Source: Candidatus Woesearchaeota archaeon (GTDB lineage Archaea; Nanobdellota; Nanobdellia; Woesearchaeales; JACPIF01). Taken from it: a DNA stretch of 56,438 nt. Below are positions 7,760-10,021 of this stretch, in pieces. Both the position numbers and the translations under genes were made by a program. Positions within the stretch are counted from its first letter, which is position 1, and every line of letters begins with the position of its first letter. The DNA is taken from NCBI GenBank assembly GCA_016188215.1, contig JACPIF010000008.1, positions 1 to 56,438 on the forward strand. The letters are read 5' to 3'. The notes below the pieces were generated by a model, which had not been told where the DNA came from, did no database searches, and saw only the letters and a list, made by a program, of their open reading frames with translations.

Positions 7760-8185
7760 ATGGCATTCAGATTCCTCCCTGATGTTGCGATCGCTGATAT
7801 TGCGTTTGAGGTGACAGCTGCTACTTTAGAGGATTTGTTTGCAGAAGCTGGAATGGCATTGCTGGAAGCCTCTGCCAACCCAAATGATGTCAAGCTGAAG
7901 ATTAAAAAGGAGATAAAGCTGTCCAATACACACATCGACAGGCTGCTGTTTGACTGGCTTGCAGAGCTGATATACCTGAAAGATGCGGAAAGCCTGCTGT
8001 TCTCTAAGTTTGAGGTAAAGATTAAAAGAGATGGGGAATACCAGCTTGATGCAACTGCATGGGGGAGCACGATAGATTATAAGGACATGGAGCTGAGGAA
8101 TGATGTCAAAGCAGTTACAATGCACATGTTTGAGGTAAAGCAAACAGATAAAGGGTGGATGGCGACTGTCGTGATTGATATTTGA
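7760..8185 (+). CDS. Archaease, RtcB RNA-ligase cofactor
   Basis: Archaease activates RtcB by promoting its guanylylation and allows multiple turnover. The 141-residue product fits the family in size and shows the conserved opening FRFLPDVAIADIAFEV, the acidic loop in SNTHIDRLLFDWLAELIYLKD (about 55-75) and the end GWMATVVIDI. Its ATG follows the previous stop with no gap, so it may be co-transcribed with the GT9 gene. rtcB starts 307 bases downstream, past one small gene, so ligase and cofactor are neighbours here as in many archaea. Confidence 0.93.
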   Translation: MAFRFLPDVAIADIAFEVTAATLEDLFAEAGMALLEASANPNDVKLKIKKEIKLSNTHIDRLLFDWLAELIYLKDAESLLFSKFEVKIKRDGEYQLDATAWGSTIDYKDMELRNDVKAVTMHMFEVKQTDKGWMATVVIDI

Positions 8186-8187
8186 AG

Positions 8188-8433
8188 ATGGCTACAACAC
8201 TAGAACCTGAGAGACAAGGAATTAAAGATTCTTTAGAAATTAAATTAGCTGTAGCTAGTATTAGAAGGGAAATTGGTAAGGAGGCCGCTGATGCAATTCA
8301 AAAAACAATTTTTAGATATTATACCTGGACCATGCATGGTGATATTACTAGACTAAAAATATTAAGCGGAACTGAACTGAGGACTGCATATATTGAATTC
8401 TTGTGGAGATATTCTAATAATTTGGATTTATAG
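8188..8433 (+). CDS. Small unrecognised protein between archaease and rtcB
   Basis: An 81-residue frame; ATG at 8188 is preferred over an in-frame TTG at 8182. I do not recognise a family. The sequence is rich in charged and helical residues (SLEIKLAVASIRREIGKEA) with no membrane segment or cysteine. The stretch is much more A/T-rich than archaease and rtcB on either side, which suggests a different origin or weak selection. It starts 2 bases after the archaease stop, so translational coupling is possible. Position alone hints at RNA-ligation or rtcB expression, but nothing in the sequence proves that. Confidence 0.5.
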   Translation: MATTLEPERQGIKDSLEIKLAVASIRREIGKEAADAIQKTIFRYYTWTMHGDITRLKILSGTELRTAYIEFLWRYSNNLDL

Positions 8434-8492: not shown

Positions 8493-10021
8493 ATGAAAGA
8501 AACAACATTAGGACCTCCTCCTGAGATCAAGCGCGTCAGCGAGGCTGTGTGGGAAATTCCTGTATCCTTTAAGAAGGGTATGAGAGTTCCAGCACGAATC
8601 ATTGCCACAGAGAAACTTTTGCAGGCAATGGACGCTGGTGTGTTTGAGCAAGTAACAAATGTTGCGTGCATGCCGGGAATCCAAAACTATGCCTTCTGTA
8701 TGCCAGACGGGCATTGGGGATTCTGAGTAAGAACACTCTTATTCAGCCCTTGATGGATTTCCAATAGGCGGCGTTGCTGCATTTGATATGGAGTCAGGTG
8801 TGATAAGTCCAGGTGGCATCGGATTCGATTTCGTGAATCTTAGCTGATTCATGACGAATGATCAATTGCGGGATGCGCCTGGTTACGACAAACCTGACAC
8901 TCAAGGAGGTAAAGCCGAGGATACGTGAGCTAGTTGACACTCTATTCCAGACAGTTCCAGCCGGTGTAGGCGGAAAAGGGTTTGTAAAGGTGAATAATTC
9001 TCAGTTTAATGACGTGATGCAGGAGGGTACGCAGTGGTGCATCAAGCAGGGCTACGGCTGGGAGGAAGATATTGAACGGACAGAAGAAGATGGCAGGATA
9101 AAACAGGCTGAGCATGAAAAAGTCTCTGAGCAAGCCAGAAAGCGAGGCATTAGCCAGCTTGGGACTCTTGGATCTGGCAACCATTACTTAGAGATTCAGT
9201 ATGCTGATGAGATACATGATGAAGCTATTGCAAAAGCAATGGGCATTACTGAGAAAGGGCAGATTGTGGTCATGGTGCATTGCGGGAGCAGGGGATTTGG
9301 GCATCAGATTGCTACTGATTATTTACGGGTTTTTGACGATGCCATGAAGAAGTATGGGATTGCTGTCAATGATAGAGAATTAGCTTGTGCTCCCTTTAAC
9401 AGCAAAGAAGGGCAGGATTACTACAAAGCAATGGCTTGCGCTGCAAACATGGCATTTGCGAATAGGCAAGTGATTTTGCACAGGATTAGAGAAGGATTTG
9501 AGAAAGTGTTCAAGACAAGTGCGGAGAAGCTTGACATGCACATGGTGTATGATGTTGCGCATAACATGGCCAAGGTTGAGGAGCATTCTATAGATGGCGA
9601 GCGCAAGAAACTAGTGGTGCACAGGAAAGGGAGCACAAGGAGCTTCGGCCCTAATCATCCTGAGCTTATTGACAAATATAAGAAAACAGGGCAGCCTGTC
9701 ATCCTTGGTGGAAGCATGGAGACTGGAAGCTATCTTCTAGTTGGGACTGAAGGTGCAATGAAGGAAACATTTGGAAGCACGGCGCATGGATCTGGAAGGA
9801 CTATGTCGCGAACACGGGCAAAAGGAGAGTTCAGGGGTGACAAGCTGCAGAGGGAGATGGAGGCTCGCGGAATTTACGTTAAGTCAATGAGCATGTCTGG
9901 GTTGGCTGAAGAGGCAGGTGCTGCCTACAAGGATATACATGAGGTTGTAAAATCTATTGAGAAGGCAGGGATTTCCAAGCCGGTGACTTCCCTACTCCCC
10001 CTCGGTAATGTCAAGGGCTAG
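8493..10021 (+). CDS. rtcB: tRNA-splicing ligase RtcB, three exons with two BHB introns
   Basis: RtcB joins RNA ends with 2',3'-cyclic phosphate and 5'-OH, and in archaea it ligates tRNA exons after endonuclease cleavage. Read straight through, the frame stops at 8724-8726 after 77 codons. Exons 8493-8721, 8753-8829 and 8861-10021 join in frame into 488 residues, close to the intein-free Pyrococcus protein. The joins recreate MPDGHWGYGFPIGG and GGIGFDINCGMRL, both conserved in RtcB. Metal ligands include Asp102 and Cys105 of DINC, which fall on either side of intron 2. The guanylylated His is in GSTAHGSGR (about bases 9775-9801). Archaease lies just upstream. Exon coding was checked by hand; splicing itself is inferred from BHB folding. 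Confidence 0.92.
8722..8752 (+). other. Predicted 31-nt BHB intron 1 in rtcB
   Basis: The insertion folds as an archaeal bulge-helix-bulge. The inner helix is 8723-8732 (CTGAGTAAGA) with 8737-8746 (TCTTATTCAG): ten pairs including one G-U, loop ACAC. The 5' bulge is AT|T (8720-8722). The central four-pair helix is GGGG 8716-8719 with CCCT 8747-8750 (one G-U). The 3' bulge is TG|A (8751-8753). Cutting between the second and third bulge bases, as known for the archaeal endonuclease, removes exactly 31 nt and gives a TAT codon for the conserved Tyr77. The outer helix is poor. It contains an in-frame TGA. Shifts of 1-2 bases also keep frame but give Asp or Phe. Confidence 0.88.
8830..8860 (+). 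other. Predicted 31-nt BHB intron 2 in rtcB
   Basis: Same size and plan as intron 1. The inner helix pairs 8831-8839 (TCGTGAATC) with 8846-8854 (GATTCATGA), nine pairs with one G-U, loop TTAGCT. The 5' bulge is AT|T (8828-8830) and the 3' bulge TG|A (8859-8861), the same trinucleotides as intron 1. The central helix TTCG 8824-8827 with CGAA 8855-8858 is fully paired, and two outer pairs follow (8823-8862, 8822-8863). Removal joins GAT to ATC and restores D-I-N-C. Unspliced, the frame meets TGA at 8845-8847. Confidence 0.9.

Follow-up and report, generated by a model that had tools for sequence, protein, structure and literature searches.

The rtcB locus and its predicted spliced reading frame

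The window analysed here is a stretch of 56,438 nucleotides, part of a 170-kb contig from a draft genome (1.11 Mb, 91% completeness) of a Woesearchaeota archaeon. It carries a gene for the RNA ligase RtcB on the forward strand (8493–10021), the only copy in the draft genome by a search with PF01139, and upstream of it, on the same strand, the gene for the RtcB activator archease (Table 1). The space between the two is occupied by an 83-codon ORF without a Pfam match (8182–8433, forward strand).

On the raw DNA, PF01139 matches three separate pieces of RtcB in different frames. When nucleotides 8722–8752 and 8830–8860 are removed, a single open frame of 488 residues extends from the ATG at 8493 to 10021, and its product matches the Pfam RtcB family in one piece over its entire length (1–426 of 426, 584 bits). 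This single match bears out the initial annotation, which had described the frame as broken twice and restored to 488 residues by taking out 31 nt at each place. Both inserts shift the frame and contain an in-frame stop, and the unspliced message runs into a TGA that limits the peptide to 77 residues. A further ORF (8858–10021, 387 residues) has its ATG within intron 2, in the frame of exon 3; the first 102 residues of RtcB are absent from it, among them the Asp of GFDINCGM. In such archaea, RtcB is truncated by gene callers, since the ORF that they would report is without these 102 residues; annotation as a 387-residue protein, its N-terminal part gone, is probably what automatic pipelines would yield, and this may be the cause of such introns being overlooked.

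Two other classes of intervening elements were considered and rejected. An intein requires an open, in-frame insert with splicing motifs, whereas the inserts of the window are 31 nt long, frame-shifted and interrupted by stops. For a group I intron they are far too short, and no Rfam match was found in the window.

Table 1. Features of the rtcB locus in the window, and intron sites in the rtcB genes of the order
Feature	Position	Strand	Description	Evidence
Archease gene	7760..8185	+	RtcB activator; upstream of rtcB, same strand	Pfam PF01951, 128.6 bits
rtcB exon 1	8493..8721	+	Codons 1–76 and first base of Tyr77	Spliced frame, Pfam RtcB
BHB element, intron 1	8716..8753	+	Central helix 8716–8719/8747–8750; bulges 8720–8722 (AUU) and 8751–8753 (UGA); inner stem 8723–8732/8737–8746	
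rtcB intron 1	8722..8752	+	31 nt, BHB type, phase 1 in the Tyr77 codon (T/AT) of HWGYGFPIGG	
rtcB exon 2	8753..8829	+	Remainder of Tyr77 to Asp102	Spliced frame, protein-to-DNA alignment
BHB element, intron 2	8824..8861	+	Central helix 8824–8827/8855–8858; bulges 8828–8830 (AUU) and 8859–8861 (UGA); inner stem 8831–8839/8846–8854; outer helix 2 bp	
rtcB intron 2	8830..8860	+	31 nt, BHB type, phase 0, Asp102/Ile103 of GFDINCGM	
rtcB exon 3	8861..10021	+	Ile103 to stop	Spliced frame, alignment, Pfam
Site A			Between His74 and Trp75	Alignment of the order's rtcB
Site B			Inside Tyr77, = window intron 1; many relatives	Alignment of the order's rtcB
Site C			Inside Ile99; 12 nt	Alignment of the order's rtcB
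Site E			Inside residue 101	Alignment of the order's rtcB
Site D			Between Asp102 and Ile103, = window intron 2; a phase variant exists	Alignment of the order's rtcB

Bulge-helix-bulge structure at the insert borders

The borders of the two inserts were determined with a splice-aware protein-to-DNA aligner whose score consists of BLOSUM62 and a fixed insert cost alone, and which is thus blind to RNA structure. It placed them exactly at the positions listed in Table 1, in phases 1 and 0, with a single placement each and no possibility of sliding. At both introns, these protein-derived borders coincide with the cut sites of a bulge-helix-bulge (BHB) element, between the second and third bulge residues, so that the cut points which the initial annotation had derived from BHB rules are indeed those that the protein needs. 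The geometry, too, was found as it had described: a 4-pair central helix lies between 3-nt bulges on opposite strands (AU/U and UG/A, the slash marking the cut), next to an inner stem of 10 pairs in intron 1 and 9 pairs in intron 2. The central helix is formed by GGGG and CCCU in the former (three Watson-Crick pairs and one G-U) and by UUCG and CGAA in the latter.

In shuffled sequences with the junctions fixed by the protein, the same structure arose 20 times (intron 1) and 41 times (intron 2) per 4,000,000, i.e. with a chance of 5e-6 and 1e-5, each about one in 100,000. Archaeal BHB introns with relaxed motifs are known. Here, the outer helix comprises two pairs at intron 2 and none at intron 1, where a U-U mismatch lies beside the bulge, and the minimum-energy fold predicted for intron 1 in a longer context has a shifted register of the central helix; this missing helix and the alternative fold are the points at intron 1 that speak against BHB splicing.

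Introns in rtcB of related archaea

Short BHB introns of 12–33 nt are present in the rtcB genes of 44 genomes from several orders of the class, this genome included, at no fewer than eight positions, all of which lie within codons 74–104 around the active-site motifs. Our survey of the order comprised 353 genomes, 311 of them with a detectable N-terminal part of rtcB that is mostly uninterrupted; from these, loci with split matches or stops were chosen for alignment. Inserts of 12–33 nt at five main sites (A–E, Table 1) were found in 35 genomes of the order, again counting that of the window, and nine more genomes from other orders of the class show known sites as well as new phases in codons 75, 102 and 104. 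The position of window intron 2, site D, is also interrupted in L205, L207, L257 and L260. The comparison with related genomes proposed in the initial annotation thus revealed same-site introns in many relatives, alongside close sisters of the carriers whose rtcB is uninterrupted at the same codon.

Joining of the split codon at site B gives the conserved Tyr. At site E, the BHB rule yields GYDVN, as encoded by intron-free relatives, where the alignment by protein alone had picked GFDVN. A relative that translates the inserted bases would speak against introns; within the order, all 44 distinct inserts shift the frame or hold an in-frame stop, in a set that was itself picked by split matches or stops. 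Likewise, the 17 introns with a length divisible by three all carry a stop, which is no evidence of selection, as stop-free in-frame inserts fall outside the sampled set.

The 12-nt intron UUUAAACCUUAG is identical in L050/L211, L210 and L263, the last of which belongs to another order. Inserts of 12 nt that contain an in-frame stop, either UUUAAACCUUAG or AUUAAACCUUAG, are found at codon 99 in L050, L211, L210, L020 and L263; they sit between a 4-pair helix (GAGG/CCUU) and an outer one (ACCCG/CGGGU). Their length is close to the lower size limit of 11 nt for archaeal tRNA introns (PMC2738675). Some loci show further irregularities. L199 (genome G190) has introns at site B and apparently at the variant of site D, and about 50 nt of exon are absent between its GFPIGG and GFD motifs; the missing stretch is flanked by two short similar stretches and reflects a deletion or an assembly collapse. 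Outside the intron cluster, frame breaks occur at codons 342–360 in L133 (genome G001) and at codon 438 in L119, the latter resembling a single-base frameshift.

The structure is kept in relatives by compensatory change. For 21 site-B introns, aligned on sequence alone and scored at 13 pairs, the pairs are formed in 96.3% of the cells, compared with 29–60% in slid registers, and 43 cells are changed on both sides, versus 13.1 ± 3.1 in shuffles (matched in 0 of 500). Among the 44 distinct introns of the order, the central helix has all four pairs in 32 and three of four in 12. For introns longer than 12 nt, 41 of 42 combine at least three of four central pairs with at least four inner pairs, a combination found in 0.4% of random placements. 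The covariance search, likewise proposed at the outset, recovered both window introns in the sampled part of the genome (E = 1.5e-7 and 4e-4) with nothing else below 0.4; since the model was trained on both, these values indicate only a lack of competitors.

These comparisons bear on two readings without splicing. One holds that rtcB is a decaying pseudogene or that the inserts are assembly errors, as a raw frame that is broken twice in a draft genome of this completeness might suggest. We consider this extremely improbable, given that the 488 residues are encoded by intact exons, the third of which runs undamaged for 386 residues, that this is the only rtcB of the genome and that inserts occur at the same base in many independently assembled genomes. 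According to the other, the RNA stays unspliced and ribosomes bypass the hairpins during translation, similar to byps elements or T4 gene 60. While short hairpins with a stop near the 5' border do resemble bypass elements, the matching take-off and landing codons of such an element are found at neither site A nor site B: at site A they are CAT and AAG, and at site B the landing frame is immediately preceded by GAT or GAC. The resumed frame at site B contains no genomic Tyr codon, yet Tyr77 is conserved, and 3-nt bulges with a 4-pair helix precisely at the border are not a prediction of bypassing. We give this reading next to no credence.

In a tree of the exon-3 protein, carriers and non-carriers are close sisters, and at least 10, 6 and 4 changes are required for sites B, A and D, respectively; the tree is a quick, unrooted one in which gains and losses look alike. 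Because carriers and non-carriers are such close sisters, the introns have often been gained, lost or exchanged. Their recurrence at many positions within the same 30 codons suggests that the arrangement was repeatedly gained or retained. Their scattered presence and absence argues against an essential regulatory role. This patchiness favours weak selection, and fits nearly neutral introns that come and go equally well as selected regulation.

The same region is a target of inteins. RtcB inteins are common in the class (e.g. L034, L111, L125, L130, L139–L144, L184–L189 and L261–L269), with insertions between N104 and C105 in about 25 loci and, more rarely, between F79 and P80 (L130). Every rtcB intron site lies 2–17 nt upstream of one of these two intein sites. 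Such proximity would be expected if the introns arose as by-products of intein homing, or as counter-measures that disrupt the target of the homing endonuclease, an account of their origin that does not conflict with splicing by EndA and RtcB. We nevertheless judge it unlikely: L263 and L275 have introns at sites C and E together with an intein between N104 and C105, and both types of elements may simply persist in conserved codons. A strict rule by which an intron protects from homing is not supported, as intron and intein occur together in these two loci.

A ligase message as a probable substrate of its own product

The genome encodes the splicing endonuclease EndA as an intact ORF of 200 residues (PF01974, 105.9 bits), and introns whose borders resemble a BHB in part or in full occur in several of its tRNA genes. 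As EndA, archease and BHB-type tRNA introns occur in the same genome, they support the view that the inserts are BHB introns of the tRNA-splicing pathway in the rtcB pre-mRNA, cut by EndA and joined by RtcB with archease, which we hold with high confidence. EndA would cut each bulge between the second and third nucleotides, and RtcB, a 3'-phosphate RNA ligase assisted by archease, would join the exons and thereby restore the RtcB frame. EndA products carry 2',3'-cyclic phosphate and 5'-OH ends, which are RtcB substrates. This established chemistry stands against a variant in which the introns are real and cut by EndA, but another ligase joins the exons and no self-dependence results. An ATP-dependent RNA ligase that circularises RNAs is reported from some archaea (PMC9014305) and could provide such an activity; still, we regard this variant as very unlikely.

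Since rtcB is a single-copy gene, the cell would need RtcB to make RtcB. An EndA-cleaved rtcB message would be fully translatable only when the ligase is available, and RtcB is probably required for its own expression, the unspliced message giving the short peptide or, at most, an N-terminally truncated protein. The ligase would then be made from a message that it seals itself: EndA cleavage without ligation would destroy the message, ligation would restore it, and ligase activity would feed back on its own synthesis. We consider such a self-dependent circuit somewhat more probable than its absence; that the loop was selected as a means of regulation is speculative.

The BHB and broken-frame scans for other mRNA introns covered 655 kb (59% of this genome). 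In this part, no other gene stood out as broken by a comparable short BHB insert, although relaxed motifs would escape such scans. A loose first BHB scan gave 307 chance matches. The top candidates that finally remained were inspected by hand and proved to be normal coding sequence or the borders between genes, such as those of a nucleotidyltransferase/HEPN pair. The covariance model, which is biased to the rtcB flanks, pointed to no second host gene in the sampled part; run on the whole genome it missed even intron 2 and is therefore not exhaustive. In this genome there is no interruption in cbf5, the gene whose mRNA is known to host such an intron in Crenarchaeota. That rtcB is the only mRNA host in this genome is thus a lead.

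The closest known parallel is the crenarchaeal cbf5 intron (Watanabe 2002; Yokobori 2009, PMC2738675), likewise a short (16–44 bp) BHB intron in the mRNA of an RNA-processing enzyme. It shares with the rtcB introns a phase-1 position in a catalytic codon, a cut after the second of the three bulge residues and lineage-specific losses (PMC2738675). In rtcB, however, the host gene encodes the ligase of the splicing pathway itself, the positions number at least eight instead of one, a single gene may hold up to two introns in one genome, intron lengths go down to 12 nt, the lineage is a class including Woesearchaeota rather than Crenarchaeota, and splicing is deduced from sequence. The BHB introns of archaeal tRNAs and rRNAs share the structural element and, presumably, the EndA/RtcB machinery, whereas those of rtcB lie in a protein-coding gene and break its frame. 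HVO_1309 of Haloferax is also an mRNA substrate of the splicing endonuclease, but its BHB is located in the 5' UTR leader, outside the coding sequence (PMC7714728). Putative 12-bp introns in an archaeal virus (PMC2738675) equal UUUAAACCUUAG and AUUAAACCUUAG in length; in rtcB, each 12-nt insert has an in-frame stop and fits a helix-bulge-helix context. RtcB inteins, finally, are likewise found in rtcB, at the two conserved motifs where the introns lie, but are removed at the protein level, span hundreds of residues and are in frame.

In 2009, pre-mRNA splicing outside cbf5 was a matter of predictions, with no confirmed case (Yokobori 2009, PMC2738675), and a study on Haloferax from 2020 still names 'only one example' of a BHB intron in a coding sequence (PMC7714728). 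Both agree with the initial annotation, which had called BHB introns rare in mRNA with cbf5 as the known case. It knew of no description of such introns in rtcB, nor did we find one in the full-text literature searched (subscription papers and preprints aside). BHB introns in mRNA are a known kind of element, from cbf5; what appears to be new in this literature is their host gene, their number of sites and the proposed self-dependence.

In the sources found, BHB introns in coding sequences are confirmed only for cbf5, and the rtcB genes add candidates in dozens of genomes, a rich data set on the gain and loss of introns in archaea. If the circuit is real, the RtcB protein must be inherited for rtcB to be expressible, and these archaea would offer a splicing enzyme that depends on its own splicing, in a natural and testable setting.
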